64,000 nucleotides of DNA from Blastomonas fulva (lineage in GTDB: Bacteria; Pseudomonadota; Alphaproteobacteria; Sphingomonadales; Sphingomonadaceae). The translations under genes were made by a program, and so were the position numbers. Under the pieces are notes generated by a model, which did no database searches, was not told the origin of the DNA, and was given only the letters and a program-made list of their open reading frames with translations. Shown here one piece after another: positions 16,295 to 44,197 of this stretch (the stretch's first letter is position 1; each line of letters begins with the position of its first letter). Location of the stretch: assembly GCF_003431825.1 (NCBI RefSeq), contig NZ_CP020083.1, positions 3,634,501 to 3,698,500 on the forward strand, in the 5' to 3' direction.

Positions 16295-16328
16295 GAGATC
16301 GTCACCATTTACTGGCGCGCCCCCCAAC

Positions 16329-16355
16329 CCGCTCAGCCTGAGCCTGTCGAAGGCC
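16329..16355 (-). repeat. Palindromic intergenic repeat, family A, left arm of the GIY-YIG cassette
   Basis: Read on the minus strand it begins GGCCTTCGACAGGCTCAGG and ends in TGAGCGG. It matches the element at 16681-16707 in 24 of 27 positions in inverted orientation. This copy contains the stop codon and last six or seven codons of the GIY-YIG gene. Confidence 0.88.
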
Positions 16356-16656
16356 CCGCGCCACTGGTGCCGGATGGCATCCGGTTTTTCGCAAGAATAG
16401 AGATTAATTGCCAATCGCCAGCGATCAGAGCCTCTTTCTTTGCACGAGACCAGCCCTTGATCTGCCGCTCGACGGCAAATGCGTCATCGCGCGTCCCGAA
16501 ATCTTCGGACCAGACGAGCGTCACAGGACGCCGCTTCGCAGTATATCCGCCAAGTGTACCGGCCTGATGCTGTGACAGGCGATGCTCCAGATCATCGGTA
16601 TGTCCAGCATAAAAGCTGCCATCATTACATCGCAGCAAGTATGCGTAAAAAGCCAT
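16333..16656 (-). CDS. GIY-YIG nuclease superfamily protein
   Basis: 107 residues. The GIY-YIG core is seen as FYAYLLRC (3-10) and SFYAGHTDDLEHRLSQH (14-30), with the family arginine Arg26 and glutamate Glu63 (AVERQIKGW). Such small stand-alone proteins (YhbQ/UPF0213-like) have a nuclease fold, but the substrate is mostly unknown. The C-terminal GPSTGSG is encoded by the family A repeat at 16329-16355, which also supplies the stop. An inverted copy of the repeat lies 24 bases before the start. The gene thus sits inside a roughly 380-base repeat-bounded cassette. Confidence 0.88.
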   Translation of the reverse strand: MAFYAYLLRCNDGSFYAGHTDDLEHRLSQHQAGTLGGYTAKRRPVTLVWSEDFGTRDDAFAVERQIKGWSRAKKEALIAGDWQLISILAKNRMPSGTSGAGPSTGSG

Positions 16657-16680
16657 GTCTGCACGCTACCGTTATAGCGT

Positions 16681-16707
16681 GGCCTTCGACAAGCTCAGGC
16701 AAAGCGG
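16681..16707 (+). repeat. Palindromic intergenic repeat, family A, right arm of the GIY-YIG cassette
   Basis: Starts GGCCTTCGACAAGCTCAGG and ends AAAGCGG; inverted relative to 16329-16355. A small hairpin, CACGCTA with TAGCGTG, lies immediately to its left (about 16663-16682). Confidence 0.85.
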
Positions 16708-16740
16708 ATCTTTGCATGATTCTGCTGCAGAACAGCGCAG

Positions 16741-16767
16741 GGCCTTCGACAGGCTCCCGCTGATCGG
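16741..16767 (+). repeat. Palindromic intergenic repeat, family A, third copy
   Basis: Begins GGCCTTCGACAGGCTCCCGC, same orientation as the copy at 16681 and 60 bases further on. The right half has diverged (TGATCGG). No gene lies between the two; the stretch 16657-16807 contains only these elements. Confidence 0.8.
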
Positions 16768-16807
16768 AGGTGGGGCGACCTTGCTGCGGAATTCGCGGGG
16801 ATGCCCC

Positions 16808-23964: not shown

Positions 23965-25881
23965 TCACTCCGCCGCCTCAATCCGCACCAGCAACGCGTC
24001 GACCTGCACCTGCGCACCCTCGCTGGCGTTCAATTCCGCCACCACGCCATCGAACGGCGCGACCAGCGAATGCTCCATCTTCATCGCCTCGAGCGTCAGC
24101 AATTTCTGCCCCTTGGTGACCGACTGGCCCGCGGTCACATCCACCGCGATGACCTTGCCCGGCATGGGCGAAAGGATCGAACCGCTCCCCGCCGCCGCAT
24201 GACCGGATCCGCGGGCAGCGATATCGAACGCATAGGCTGTCCCGTCCGCAAAGAGGATCGCCTGGTCGCCCTGGATATGCCCAGTGACAACCGCAGCATC
24301 GGTGTTTTCGGGCAGGTAATAGTCGGCGGCATCGTCTCCGACGGACACGATCTGGTCGCCGATCATCGCGACATCGACTGTTCGGGTTTCACCGCCGCTT
24401 GCCAGCGTGACGCGATGCACGGGCACAGTGTTCAAACGGAAGCCAGCATTGTGCACAGGCTCGGTGCTGTCGTGCACCAATCTCGCCGCCACCTCGAACA
24501 GGGCATCCTCGGGCTCGCTGGGCGGGATCAGCGCGTCGCCAGCATTGGCGATGAAACCGGTATCCAGATCGGCCTCGACAAAGCTGTCCGACCACAAGGC
24601 GCGCACCAGAAAGCCAGCATTGGTCCTCACGGGCCAGACTTCGGTCTCGCTGACGGCATGCGCCAGCGCGGATATGGCATCGCTGCGGGTTTCGCCATGG
24701 CAAACGATCTTGGCGATCATCGGGTCATAAAAGGGCGAGACCGCCCCGCCCTGCTCGACCCCGGTCTCGACGCGGTCTGCCTCACCGAACACCAGGTGCT
24801 CCAACCGTCCCGTACTCGGCAGAAACCCCTTCGCCGGATCTTCCGCATACAACCGCGCTTCCATTGCCCAGCCGTTGATGCTGAGCTCCTCCTGCCTGAG
24901 CGGGATCGGCTCGCCGCTCGCAACACGCAGCTGCCATTCGACGAGGTCGACCCCGGTGATCTCCTCGGTCACCGGATGCTCGACCTGCAGCCGCGCGTTC
25001 ATTTCCATGAACCAGATGCGGTCGGCGCGCAGGCCTTGCGAGCCATCGGCGATGAACTCGATCGTGCCCGCGCCCTCATAATCCACCGCCTTGGCCGCGC
25101 GCACCGCAGCGCCGCACACCGCCGCGCGCGTCGCTGCGTCCATGCCGGGCGCGGGGGCTTCCTCGATGACCTTCTGGTGGCGGCGTTGCAGCGAGCAATC
25201 GCGCTCGAACAGGTGGACGACGTTCCCATGAGAGTCACCGAACACCTGCACCTCAATATGGCGCGGGCTTTCGATCCATTTTTCGAGCAGCACGACATCG
25301 TTGCCGAAACTCGCCGCCGCCTCGCGCTTGCAGCTGACCAGCGCATCGGCGAAATCCGCCGGTGCATCCACTTTCCGCATCCCCTTGCCGCCGCCGCCCG
25401 CGACCGCCTTGATCAGCACGGGATAGCCGATCGCAGCGGCCTGCTCGGCGAGGAAATCGGGGTCCTGATTGTCACCCAGATAGCCCGGCGTGGTCGGCAC
25501 GCCCGCTGCGTCCATCAGCTTCTTCGCCGCGTCCTTGAGCCCCATCGCGCGGATCGAATCCGGCTTCGGCCCCACCCAGATCAGGCCCGCGTCGATCACG
25601 GATTGCGCGAACTCGGCGTTTTCCGAGAGGAAGCCGTAACCCGGATGGATCGCCTCTGCCCCGGTCTGTTTCGCGGCGGCAATGATCTTCTCGCCCACCA
25701 GATAGCTCTCGCGCGCCGGCGAAGGCCCGATATGCACCGCTTCATCGGCCGAACGCACATGCAGCGCCTTGGCGTCGGCGTCTGAGTACACCGCGACCGT
25801 GCGGACACCCATGGCCCGCGCGGTGCGGATGATCCGGCAGGCGATTTCGCCACGGTTGGCGATGAGGAGGGATTTCAGCAT
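23965..25881 (-). CDS. liuD: Methylcrotonyl-CoA carboxylase-type biotin carboxylase/BCCP subunit (alpha)
   Basis: 638 residues from the ATG at 25881 (AGGAT upstream). Order of domains: biotin carboxylase (1 to about 450, starting MLKSLLIANRGEIACRIIRTA, ATP-grasp loop VAGGGGKGMRKV near 160), a linker, and a C-terminal biotinyl domain with Lys601 in LEAMKMEHS. It loads CO2 on biotin for the beta subunit. With an acyl-CoA dehydrogenase of isovaleryl type in the same operon, 3-methylcrotonyl-CoA is the likely substrate; propionyl-CoA carboxylase is less likely. Confidence 0.9.
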   Translation of the reverse strand: MLKSLLIANRGEIACRIIRTARAMGVRTVAVYSDADAKALHVRSADEAVHIGPSPARESYLVGEKIIAAAKQTGAEAIHPGYGFLSENAEFAQSVIDAGLIWVGPKPDSIRAMGLKDAAKKLMDAAGVPTTPGYLGDNQDPDFLAEQAAAIGYPVLIKAVAGGGGKGMRKVDAPADFADALVSCKREAAASFGNDVVLLEKWIESPRHIEVQVFGDSHGNVVHLFERDCSLQRRHQKVIEEAPAPGMDAATRAAVCGAAVRAAKAVDYEGAGTIEFIADGSQGLRADRIWFMEMNARLQVEHPVTEEITGVDLVEWQLRVASGEPIPLRQEELSINGWAMEARLYAEDPAKGFLPSTGRLEHLVFGEADRVETGVEQGGAVSPFYDPMIAKIVCHGETRSDAISALAHAVSETEVWPVRTNAGFLVRALWSDSFVEADLDTGFIANAGDALIPPSEPEDALFEVAARLVHDSTEPVHNAGFRLNTVPVHRVTLASGGETRTVDVAMIGDQIVSVGDDAADYYLPENTDAAVVTGHIQGDQAILFADGTAYAFDIAARGSGHAAAGSGSILSPMPGKVIAVDVTAGQSVTKGQKLLTLEAMKMEHSLVAPFDGVVAELNASEGAQVQVDALLVRIEAAE

Positions 25882-25886
25882 GGATT

Positions 25887-26327
25887 CTATCCTGAAAATC
25901 CTCCCCGAGCTTGTCTCGGGGAGGGGGACCGCCCGGCACTTGCCGGGTGGTGGAGGGGCAATCGCGACCGAGCGAACTGAACGATTCCGTCGGCAGCAGT
26001 GGAACAATCCCCAAGCACATCACTTGCGGGAATTCGCAGGGTTTCAATGCCTTGCGACTTCAGCCAGGCATCGCGGCGCTCGTCGCGATATGGGCGGTCG
26101 CCAAAAGCGTGCGACTGGCCGTCTATCTCGATCGCCAGGCGTGCGTCGGCGCAGTAAAAATCTAAAGTGAGCTCCCCACTGGGATGTTGACGGCGGAACT
26201 TCAGGCCTTCTGGCCGCGCCTTGAGCAGTTGCCAAAGCAGAACCTCCGGCAGGCTCATATCCTTGCGCAGTCGACGGGCGCGGGTGACCGAGCCCGTTTG
26301 GGGTTTGGGGGCCTCATCCTTGAGCAT
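25887..26327 (-). CDS. DUF559 (Vsr/PD-(D/E)XK-like) nuclease-fold protein in a repeat cassette
   Basis: 146 residues. The core RQHPSGELTLDFYCADARLAIEIDGQSH contains Asp56, Glu67, Asp69 and His73, the pattern of DUF559 proteins related to very-short-patch repair endonucleases. The start is read from a ribosome site GGAGGGG lying in the right-hand repeat (26333-26393). Residues about 123-144 (LPLHHPASAGRSPSPRQARG) are encoded by the left-hand inverted copy (25896-25959). It separates two carboxylase subunit genes that normally adjoin. No enzymatic role is proven for these small proteins. Confidence 0.88.
   Translation of the reverse strand: MLKDEAPKPQTGSVTRARRLRKDMSLPEVLLWQLLKARPEGLKFRRQHPSGELTLDFYCADARLAIEIDGQSHAFGDRPYRDERRDAWLKSQGIETLRIPASDVLGDCSTAADGIVQFARSRLPLHHPASAGRSPSPRQARGGFSG
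25896..25959 (+). repeat. Palindromic repeat, family D, left arm of the DUF559 cassette
   Basis: About 64 bases beginning AAATCCTCCCCGAGCTTGTC, with internal palindromes CCTCCCCGAG/CTCGGGGAGG and CCACC-like ends (GGGTGGTGGAGGGGC). The same sequence, inverted, is found at 26333-26393; they differ mainly in the small loop (GGCACTTGCC versus CGCAGC). Confidence 0.92.
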
Positions 26328-26332
26328 CAAGA

Positions 26333-26393
26333 GCCCCTCCACCACCCGCTGCGCGGGCGGTCCCCCTCCCCGAGACAAGCTCGGGGAGGATTT
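26333..26393 (-). repeat. Palindromic repeat, family D, right arm of the DUF559 cassette
   Basis: Inverted copy of 25896-25959. Its inner end reads GGAGGGGCTC on the minus strand and places a Shine-Dalgarno sequence directly before the DUF559 start codon at 26327. The cassette bounded by both arms measures about 498 bases. Confidence 0.92.
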
Positions 26394-26424: not shown

Positions 26425-28026
26425 TCACATCCGGAAAACCCCAAACCGGGGCCCCTCCTCCACCGGCGCGTTGAGGCATGCCGCGAGCGCCAGCCCAAGG
26501 ACGTCCCTCGTCTGCGCGGGGTCGATGATGCCGTCGTCCCACAGCCGCGAGGTGGCGTGGTAGGGGCTTCCCTGCGCCTCATAGTCATCACGGATCGGCT
26601 GCTTGAACGCTTCGGCCTGCTCAGGGGTCCAATTGTCGGCATCACGATGGACCGTCGCCAGCACCGCTGCCGCCTGCTCGCCGCCCATCACCGAAATCCG
26701 CGAATTCGGCCAGCTGAACAGGAAGCGGGGCGAGTACGCCCGCCCGCACATGCCGTAATTGCCCGCGCCGAAGCTGCCGCCGATCAGCACGGTGACCTTG
26801 GGCACGCTCGCGGTGGCGACCGCGGTGACCAGCTTGGCGCCATGCTTGGCAATGCCTTCGGCCTCATACTTGCCACCAACCATGAAGCCGGAGATGTTCT
26901 GCAGGAACAGTAGGGGAATGCGCCGCTGGCAGGCGAGTTCGATGAAATGCGCGCCCTTGACCGCGCTTTCGCTGAACAGCACACCGTTGTTGGCGAGGAT
27001 CGCGACCGGCATTCCCCAGATATGCGCGAAACCGCATACCAGCGAACTGCCGTACAGCGCCTTGAACTCGTGGAACTCGCTGCCGTCGACGATCCGCGCG
27101 ATGACCTCGTGCACGTCATACGGCGCGCGGACATCCGAGGGGATGATGCCGTACAGCTCCTCCGCGTCGAACTTCGGCGGACGCGGATCGCGGATGTCGA
27201 TATTGGGCTTCGGGATCGGGCCGAGGTGCGAAACGATATCGCGTACAATCGTCAGCGCGTGCTCGTCATTCTCGGCAACATGATCGACCACGCCCGATTT
27301 GCGTCCGTGCAGATCGCCGCCGCCCAGATCTTCGGCGCTGATCTCCTCGCCCGTCGCGGCTTTCACCAAGGGCGGCCCGGCGAGGAATATCGTGCCCTGG
27401 TTGCGGACGATCACGCTTTCGTCGGACATTGCGGGCACATATGCGCCGCCTGCGGTACAGCTACCCATCACGCAGGCGATCTGCGGGATGCCCTTGGCGG
27501 ACATGTTCGCCTGGTTGAAGAAAATGCGGCCGAAATGCTCGCGGTCGGGGAAGACCTCGGCCTGGTGCGGCAGGTTGGCGCCGCCCGAGTCCACCAGGTA
27601 GATGCACGGCAGCCGGTTGGCCTCGGCAATCTCCTGCGCGCGCAGGTGCTTCTTCACCGTCATCGGGTAATAGGTGCCGCCCTTCACCGTGGCGTCGTTG
27701 CACACGATCATGCACTGGCGACCCGAGACGCGGCCGATGCCGGCGATCATCCCTGCGCCGGGAATTTCGCCATCGTACAGGTCACAGGCAGCAAGTTGGC
27801 CGATCTCGAGGAACGGCGAGCCTGGGTCGAGCAGCCGCTCGACGCGCTCGCGCGGCAGCAGTTTGCCCCGCGATGTGTGCCGCTCGCGCGACTTGGCGTT
27901 GCCGCCCAATGCGGCCTCGGCAACCTTGCTCCAGAGCTCATCGCGCAGGGTGATATTGTGCGTGAAAGATGCGCGGTAGGTGTCTGAATTGGTGTCGATC
28001 TTGGTGTCGAGGGTTGGCGCGGTCAT
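26425..28026 (-). CDS. liuB: Methylcrotonyl-CoA carboxylase-type carboxyltransferase subunit (beta)
   Basis: 533 residues with the two-lobed carboxyltransferase fold: [19 protein letters not shown] (about 145-165), [34 protein letters not shown] (about 170-205) and [37 protein letters not shown] near 440. This GANLP...[10 protein letters not shown] set is typical for methylcrotonyl/geranyl-CoA carboxylases rather than propionyl-CoA ones. The start ATG overlaps the stop of the dehydrogenase gene (TGATG), so the two are coupled. Its natural partner, the alpha subunit, lies beyond the DUF559 cassette. Confidence 0.93.
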
Positions 28027-29183
28027 CACCGAGCTCCAATCAGTTCGCGCGCGATCAGGAAGCGGCGGATTTCGTTGGTCCCTGCCCCGATGTCGTACAG
28101 CTTGGCATCGCGCAGGAAGCGTTCGACCGGCCAGTCGGTGGTGTAGCCCGCCCCGCCCAAGGCCTGGATCGCCTCGAGCGAGCATTTGACCGCGTTCTCG
28201 CTGGCCAATAAGATCGCACCGGCGGCATCGAACCGCGTCGTCTTGCCCGCATCACAGGCGCGCGCGACCGCATAGACATAGGCGCGGGCGCTGTTGAGCG
28301 CGACGTACATGTCGGCGACCTTGGCCTGCACCATCTGGAACGAGCCGATGGGGGAGCCGAACTGCTTGCGCTCGCGCACATAGGGCAGCACCACGTCGAG
28401 GCACGCCTGCATGATGCCCAAAGGCCCGGCAGCGAGCACCGCGCGCTCGTAATCGAGCCCGCTCATCAGCACGCCAACGCCGCCGTTCAATGGCCCCATG
28501 ACGTTTTCTTGCGGAACGAAGCAATCGTCGAACACCAATTCCGCCGTCGGGCTCCCGCGCATCCCCATCTTCTGGATCTTCTGGCCTATGCTGAAGCCCG
28601 GCATATCCTTTTCGATGATGAACGCGGTGATCCCGCCCGATCCCTCCCCGGTCTTGGCATAGACAATCAGCGTCTCAGCATACGCCGAATTGGTGATCCA
28701 GAACTTGGTGCCGTTGAGCCGGTATCCGCCCGCGACTTCGCTGGCCTTGAGCTTCATCGAGACCACGTCCGATCCGGCGCCGACTTCGGACATCGCCAGC
28801 GATCCGACATGCTCGCCCGAGATCAGCCCGGGCAGATACTTCGCCTTCTGTTGCGCGTTGCCCCAGCGGCGCAACTGGTTGACGCACAGGTTGGAGTGCG
28901 CGCCGTACGACAGCCCCAGCGAAGCGCTCGCGCGGCTGACTTCTTCCATCGCGATGACATGCTCGAGATAGCCCAGCCCCAGCCCGCCGTCTTCCTCGCT
29001 CACCGTGATGCCGTGCAGGCCCAGCGCCCCCATTTGCGGCCACAATTCGATCGGGAACCAGTCCTCGGCATCGATCTTCGCGGCGATCGGCGCGATCTTG
29101 TCCGCGGCAAAGCGCGCGGTGGTGTCGCGGATCATGTCCGCAGCCTCGCCCAGCGCGAAGTCGAAATCGGGCATCGTGGACAT
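28026..29183 (-). CDS. liuA: Isovaleryl-CoA dehydrogenase-type acyl-CoA dehydrogenase
   Basis: 385 residues from the ATG at 29183 (GAGGA upstream). Acyl-CoA dehydrogenase hallmarks: [35 protein letters not shown], and the C-terminal flavin site [37 protein letters not shown]. The catalytic glutamate for isovaleryl-CoA dehydrogenases lies unusually in helix [11 protein letters not shown] near 250 fits that. It oxidises isovaleryl-CoA to 3-methylcrotonyl-CoA. First gene of the operon, divergent from a LysR gene. Confidence 0.92.
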
Positions 29184-44111: not shown

Positions 44112-44197
44112 TAATCCTCCCCGAGCTTGTCTCAGGGAGGGGGACCATCCGCAGGATGGTGGTCCCCCTTCCCCAGCAAGCTGGTGGAGGATTTTAG
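44112..44197. repeat. Palindromic repeat, family D, solo copy
   Basis: Starts AATCCTCCCCGAGCTTGTCT and GGGAGGGGGACC, as in the DUF559 cassette arms, but continues into its own inverted half (GGTCCCCCTT...GGTGGAGGATT), so the whole is one long imperfect palindrome. It lies just after the DUF695/RraB gene (convergent with the EF-hand-like gene), with no nuclease gene attached. Confidence 0.85.

Follow-up and report, generated by a model that had tools for sequence, protein, structure and literature searches.

A DUF559 nuclease gene situated between two acyl-CoA carboxylase genes of Blastomonas fulva was found to be framed by two inverted copies of a palindromic repeat. The unit probably represents the copy that carries the nuclease within a REPIN-like repeat family, whose repeat would be cut and spread by the DUF559 protein. 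The unit lies in a stretch of 64,000 nucleotides that was analysed as a whole (the window), and its features have the following positions in the window.

25887..26327, minus strand: gene for a DUF559 nuclease; the product counted from the ATG (26327-26325) has 146 aa (PF04480 profile and sequence)
26333..26393, minus strand: upstream (5′) repeat copy, with outer hairpin, GGGACC, inner hairpin and G-rich tail with terminal GGAGGGG
26365..26389, no strand assigned: outer palindrome of the upstream copy, CCTCCCCGAG-loop-CTCGGGGAGG
26341..26361, no strand assigned: inner stem-loop in the upstream copy; its sequence varies, its pairing is conserved
26334..26340, minus strand: Shine-Dalgarno-like GGAGGGG within the upstream repeat (sequence)
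25896..25959, plus strand: downstream (3′) repeat copy, coding for the C-terminus when read on the minus strand
25900..25924, no strand assigned: outer palindrome of the downstream copy (inverted-arm comparison and repeat search)
23965..25881, minus strand: host gene for the acyl-CoA carboxylase biotin-carboxylase subunit, immediate neighbour
26425..28185, minus strand: host gene for the acyl-CoA carboxylase carboxyltransferase subunit, immediate neighbour

The two repeat copies share two pairs of arms, 25896-25935/26354-26393 (40 nt) and 25944-25959/26333-26348 (16 nt), both 100% complementary. From outside to inside, the repeat of about 62 nt consists of AAAT, the 25-nt palindrome CCTCCCC-GAGCTTGTCTC-GGGGAGG, GGGACC, a second stem-loop and GGTGGAGGGG, and with DNA energies a two-hairpin fold was obtained for both copies (z -4.32 and -5.55). 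The initial annotation, made from the letters alone, had described inverted copies of a palindrome of about 62 bases; the inverted copies were confirmed, but each contains two hairpins, a constant outer and a variable inner one, instead of a single palindrome. Read on the minus strand, the right copy runs ...GGTGGTGGAGGGG-CTCTTG-ATG. Its GGAGG is separated by 8 nt from the start codon (26327-26325), in agreement with the proposed role of its GGAGGGG as ribosome site. Since the ORF stop is at 25887, its final 24 codons, which specify 23 residues and the stop, fall within or just past the left copy, close to the about 20 C-terminal residues assigned to it before. A scan of the 64-kb window at the geometry of the cassette (1575 positions) detected five distinct inverted repeats with a score of at least 14, of which the DUF559 cassette scored 49, a GIY-YIG gene at 16322-16775 scored 22 and the remaining three scored 14-15.

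The assignment of the gene to DUF559 held, the PF04480 profile matching with 80.9 bits compared to a curated cut-off of 20.6. In an alignment of 63 sequences R21, D56, E67, G70, H73 and R98 (ATG numbering) were invariant and D69 was near-invariant (at least 90% of the sequences); in the numbering of the fragment, which starts 6 codons upstream of the ATG, these residues are R27, D62, E73, D75, G76, H79 and R104, i.e., ATG numbering plus 6. The AlphaFold model of the protein (pLDDT 90.2) matched the structures 3hrl (E 1.4e-5) and 3r3p, the catalytic domain of I-Bth0305I (E 2.5e-4), and weakly 1vsr (E 0.067), and profile matches were obtained to 3hrl (NGO0050, 5.4e-35), PvuRts1I and 3r3p. As modelled, the protein is a PD-(D/E)XK nuclease of the Vsr/EDxHD fold with a conserved putative active site, and by profile it does not contain a Y1 domain (PF01797). 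For the two Blastomonas orthologues dN was 0.09 and dS was saturated at about 2.2, and dN was far below dS in 12 of 13 close pairs, these being the pairs that gave a ratio, with dS saturated in several. Judged from these substitution rates the gene is under purifying selection, and together with the invariant residues and the fold matches this indicates a conserved and probably active predicted nuclease. A role as phage-defence gene was rejected, PADLOC giving weak matches only (DpdF, 26 bits; a methyl-directed restriction enzyme, 12 bits).

Framing was scored by local alignment of the left flank with the reverse complement of the right flank (match 1, mismatch -2), and loci with a score of at least 14 were regarded as framed. 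The B. fulva genome contains five DUF559 genes, all five located between inverted palindromic repeats, and the repeats belong to five different families. A second framed gene of this genome is located between nrdA and nrdB (L002; G000 C1 392806-396114). Nine Blastomonas genomes contain 25 DUF559 genes, and all 21 with full flanks scored 19-49, with shifted control windows at 7-12. Near contig ends, L031 scored 21 and is the 22nd framed locus of the genus, L024 retained a repeat remnant where it is cut and had a repeat on the opposite side, and L026 and L038 were kept outside the genus framing count.

Within the class, DUF559 was present in 97/289 genomes. The best 30 class loci included 27 with full flanks, 17 of which scored at least 14 (shifted-window controls in DUF559 rows 1/108), and in a random class sample 24 of 38 loci with full flanks were framed (controls 2/146). 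This sample held one locus per genome for 40 of 50 genomes and was drawn from 91 further rows with about 90 bits and above; weaker, often partial rows and rows whose start was less than 1.7 kb from that of the contig were left out. Among the best 80 of 213 relatives of the window protein in named genomes, 73 had full flanks and 51/73 were framed (controls 2/290); in other classes of the phylum 10/19 top-scoring loci were framed (controls 4/76). Framed loci were found in Caulobacter, Brevundimonas, Mesorhizobium, Pseudoxanthomonas, Algibacter and a Prevotellaceae, as well as in assemblies from Nitrospirae, Verrucomicrobia, Planctomycetota, Thermoflexus and Gracilibacteria, many of which are metagenome assemblies. 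The initial annotation would have been contradicted by a DUF559 family that usually lacks flanking repeats, and these results do not fit such a family. About one third of the loci (14/38 random class loci and 22/73 named loci) were unframed, and Aeromonas, E. coli, Synechocystis and Photobacterium were unframed at the threshold. A pooled, non-random set that leans to relatives of the window gene contained 139 framed loci out of 192 with full flanks. Chance or local composition as the cause of framing was rejected, shifted-window controls reaching the threshold in only 9/608 cases, and the window scan pointed the same way.

Plasmid records yielded 33 matches, of which seven were picked by hand; L193, L194 and L196 were framed and L192, L195 and L197 unframed. 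The framed gene of L194 lies among transhydrogenase genes in a plasmid record of Sphingomonas parapaucimobilis, and that of L196 among paa genes in a plasmid record of Deinococcus psychrotolerans. In Neisseria gonorrhoeae (L346) repeats of similar style were present nearby with a score of 13, controls reaching up to 17, and this locus was not counted as framed. By a rough automatic rule the repeat was apparently reversed in 14/135 framed loci; in L029, L032, L059, L196, L260 and L272 the C-rich tail appears to lie outside the palindrome and the G-rich tail to point away from the gene. A ribosome site and start codon were located beside the upstream repeat end in 59/124 framed loci, and the reading frame entered the downstream repeat by at least 9 nt in 78/124, so that the cassette ends double as expression signals. 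A G-quadruplex was rejected as common principle, a canonical motif being present in only 34/135 upstream arms (about 3 expected from shuffles).

The repeat and the protein were found to go together. Among 149 genomes of the family, the window repeat pattern was present in 66 (reversed-pattern control 0 among the rows listed), and of the 52 that have the cognate protein 45 carry it, compared to 21 of the 97 lacking the protein (Fisher p 1.5e-14, genome counts ignoring phylogeny), and the median number of copies was 11 with and 0 without the protein, kinship again being ignored. The cut for the cognate protein (E≤1e-20) was chosen post hoc on viewing the list. Seven of the 52 genomes with the cognate protein contained zero copies by the exact pattern. 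One genome (G304) carries 100 window-type repeat copies and no close DUF559 protein (best E 1.7e-11); its repeats may be orphaned or may be served by another partner. Across 133 framed cassettes, protein identity was correlated with repeat similarity when the pairs with most similar flanks were removed (rho 0.336; reached by 0/500 permutations), and when permutation was restricted to within genomes (42 cassettes in 18 genomes) the observed correlation was reached in 3/1000. A host-wide repeat decorating any gene was rejected on the basis of this within-genome permutation and of the five DUF559 genes with five repeats in one genome. A RAYT was likewise rejected as the mover, as a search for the Y1 transposase domain gave 0 matches in the B. 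fulva genome; two of the nine genus genomes have one.

Away from the gene, the 25-nt palindrome is present in 13 copies in the B. fulva genome (at most 3 mismatches), and the full unit in 19 by pattern. The bases outside the palindrome in these 13 copies were AAAT, CAAT, AAGT or TAAT and the inner side was GGGACC or a variant; no GTAG or CGTC tag was found beside the palindrome in any of the 13. Among 150 repeat sites listed for 16 genomes there were 36 neighbouring pairs at most 1 kb apart, 33 of which faced each other with tails inward, the other three being otherwise oriented. The facing pairs comprised 24 doublets 12-99 nt apart and nine pairs at 350-392 nt, of which eight enclosed and one overlapped a match from an independent DUF559 protein search. 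Thus, starting from the repeat alone, every cassette-sized pair listed held DUF559 and the rest were REPIN-like short doublets; the majority of the listed window-repeat copies were gene-less. Of 26 distinct 11-nt cores, 22 form at least 3 Watson-Crick pairs compared to 13.6% of chimeras, and by this comparison the inner stem is constrained for pairing and free in sequence. The window itself contains a gene-less doublet of its repeat at about 44113-44195, and relatives at this site (L198-L206) showed the full doublet, one fused palindrome, other repeats or nothing, a fused single palindrome replacing the doublet in L206. No clean empty site for the doublet near 44116 was found in L198-L206, the flanks being too rearranged. 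Two Rfam matches each scored under the gathering score, so that assignment to a known RNA family was rejected, and so was carriage by viral contigs, in which 0/11 pattern stretches encode a relative of the window protein.

Movement of the unit was assessed from homology blocks. Two duplicates in one genome (L085 and L176) showed 79% DNA identity over 681 columns, ending at most 5 nt from the cassette ends; no target duplication was seen there by eye. Of 215 pairs with a protein identity of at least 0.55 and unlike flanks, 181 yielded a homology block over the gene; these pairs are non-independent and some consist of junction cassettes in opposite orientation. Both block ends lay at most 15 nt from the repeat ends of either member in 56 of these pairs, in 114 the block broke off within the cassette at one or both ends, and in 27 it continued past the cassette at one or both ends. 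Among pairs with a protein identity of at least 0.7, 39/50 had similar flanks, indicating the same locus, which counts against frequent movement.

The junction of the carboxylase genes was occupied in all nine Blastomonas genomes: three carry a DUF559 cassette and six a GIY-YIG gene on the opposite strand. The position between these genes was correctly described, but the statement that they normally adjoin does not apply to the genus: simple adjacency was found in 0/9 genomes and a nuclease cassette in 9/9, with no clean empty site. The six GIY-YIG genes (L040, L043, L044, L045, L046 and L047) are framed by GTCACCCTGAACTTGTTTCAGGG(T/C)CCAT palindromes. Three of the six genomes keep a solo repeat at the junction, of the window type and in matching orientation; in one of these three, G002, it is reduced to its outer hairpin. 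With other genera included, DUF559 was found beside or between carboxylase genes at 12 loci, on the carboxylase strand in seven (including the three Blastomonas) and on the other strand in five; the gap exceeds 1 kb in L123, L126, L193 and L208, and the L211 stretch has only one carboxylase gene. In the tree the junction needs four changes and the orientation three. A single clade of 11 junction rows was weakly rejected (AU p 0.026), so that purely vertical insertion at the junction was set aside, and a clade of the three Blastomonas rows was unrejected (p 0.107). The presence of junction cassettes in both orientations, together with these tree changes, indicates that the gap is either a hot spot or a site where the cassette flips.

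The proposal of the initial annotation that the unit is a self-contained mobile cassette was thus upheld in part. It is a real unit, as judged from the framed shares in the random class and named samples, the doublets, the 56 pairs with blocks ending at the repeats, and a junction occupied in either orientation or by a GIY-YIG cassette instead. On the other hand, most close pairs stay put, neither a clean empty site nor (by eye) a target duplication was found where these were looked for, and most of the listed repeat copies are gene-less.

An alternative is a free-standing homing endonuclease, which would cut the cassette-free intergenic allele so that break repair copies the cassette, the repeats acting as homology arms or landing sites. 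The 12 junction loci in both orientations, the further DUF559 gene between nrdA and nrdB, the solo repeat that matches in type and orientation in three Blastomonas genomes without DUF559 at the junction, and I-Bth0305I among the nearest solved folds all point in this direction. Still, homing leaves the dispersed gene-less doublets, the link to copy number and the five different framed repeats in one genome unexplained, and a single clade of the junction cassettes was weakly rejected; we regard homing as unlikely. The similarity to EDxHD/Vsr-like homing endonucleases (I-Bth0305I, PDB 3r3p) comprises the fold, the acidic active-site pattern and a compact gene between conserved genes; in contrast to I-Bth0305I, the DUF559 gene is not intron-borne and is framed by multi-copy palindromes, and its ends have gene-less relatives.

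Less likely still is a Vsr-like host enzyme for mismatch repair around which unrelated hairpins were collected as terminators, ribosome sites and C-termini. The Caulobacter protein VsrA, which belongs to the DUF559 family by the paper's own statement, is described in part of that report as linked in its function with a solitary cytosine methyltransferase (PMC12907096), and the purifying selection and the many orthologues that keep their position would also suit a repair enzyme. VsrA differs in being known, according to the same part of the report, from a 5mC-dependent DNA-damage phenotype, and that part mentions no association with repeats (PMC12907096). The partner cytosine methyltransferase of a Vsr enzyme is not among the immediate neighbours of the B. 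fulva gene, which are the carboxylase genes. However, a repair enzyme does not account for a framing hairpin family that differs from gene to gene within a genome and co-varies with the protein, for a gene within all nine cassette-sized facing repeat pairs, or for homology blocks ending at the repeats. A guardian nuclease, which would attack hairpins extruded by repeats of its own class and thereby keep these repeats in check or edit them, with framing as self-regulation, is very improbable, since a limiter predicts fewer repeats and genomes with the cognate protein have more, even if the ribosome sites beside the upstream repeat ends and the fused palindrome of L206 where a doublet is expected would fit it.

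The most economical inference from the sequence comparisons is thus that the DUF559 protein cuts and spreads its own repeat. The protein would most likely recognise the folded repeat, consisting of outer hairpin, inner hairpin and G-rich tail, and would nick or cut at or beside it; by such cutting the protein may disperse short repeat doublets without a gene, in trans, to other sites of the genome and, rarely, its own framed gene. DUF559 would then fill the role presumed for RAYTs on classical REPs by means of an unrelated enzyme.

Insertion sequences with MITEs have inverted ends, one coding copy and many short non-coding copies. The DUF559 cassette resembles them in its inverted ends, coding copy and many short non-coding copies, but it has complex hairpin ends and neither a recognised transposase nor a target duplication seen by eye. 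NGO0050 (PDB 3hrl) shares the DUF559 domain family and is known from its structure alone. The closest resemblance in organization is to REPIN-RAYT systems, for which the relevant sections of earlier reports describe one gene per repeat family between two inverted REPs, with inverted doublets elsewhere and co-variation of repeat and gene (PMC2817692, PMC3116915, PMC8266576), and orthologues that can hold their position while the repeats change (PMC3116915, PMC2817692). DUF559 genes are similarly framed by inverted repeats, with dispersed inverted doublets and co-variation of gene and repeat, and their orthologues are mostly found at one locus, as those sections describe for RAYTs (PMC3116915, PMC2817692). 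The enzyme differs, being a predicted Vsr-fold PD-(D/E)XK nuclease where RAYT is a Y1/HuH transposase, and so does the repeat, which does not carry a GTAG tag and has a grammar of its own (a C-run hairpin, often an inner hairpin, and a G-run tail); besides, the DUF559 arrangement was found here in several phyla. As the architecture matches that of REPIN-RAYT except for the enzyme and the tag, DUF559 may be read as a second, convergent REP partner. Among the papers listed from the open-licence PMC literature, none describes framing of DUF559 or GIY-YIG genes by repeats of this kind; a report may be in print elsewhere.

A parallel was found among small GIY-YIG genes. The window contains one at 16333-16656 (minus strand) within inverted CCTGAGCCTGTCGAAGGCCC-type repeats (16322-16775; inverted-repeat score 22). 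In the B. fulva genome two of three small GIY-YIG genes were framed and two long GIY-YIG frames were unframed. The best 29 GIY-YIG loci of the class included 24 with full flanks, of which 13 were framed (controls 1/96), by palindromes of a style unlike those of DUF559. We tentatively propose, as a reading with somewhat less than even chances, that DUF559 (Vsr-like) and GIY-YIG, enzymes of unrelated folds, are each dedicated partners of hairpin repeats across bacteria and move a large share of REP-like repeats where RAYTs are absent. If this is true, they would represent two further enzymatic classes of REPIN besides those of the tyrosine transposases.

Bacterial genomes commonly contain short palindromic repeats, but to our knowledge it is chiefly for the RAYT-linked palindromes that a candidate mover has been put forward. 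For these, the candidate is set out in the relevant sections of PMC2817692 and PMC3116915. Our results suggest that the DUF559 family helps to spread bacterial repeats for which a spreader was hitherto unknown. They thereby suggest what DUF559, which is widespread and classed as “of unknown function”, may do, and how several quite different DUF559 copies may come to be present in one genome; a named enzyme family and its cognate repeats would constitute a matched, testable pair in each genome.
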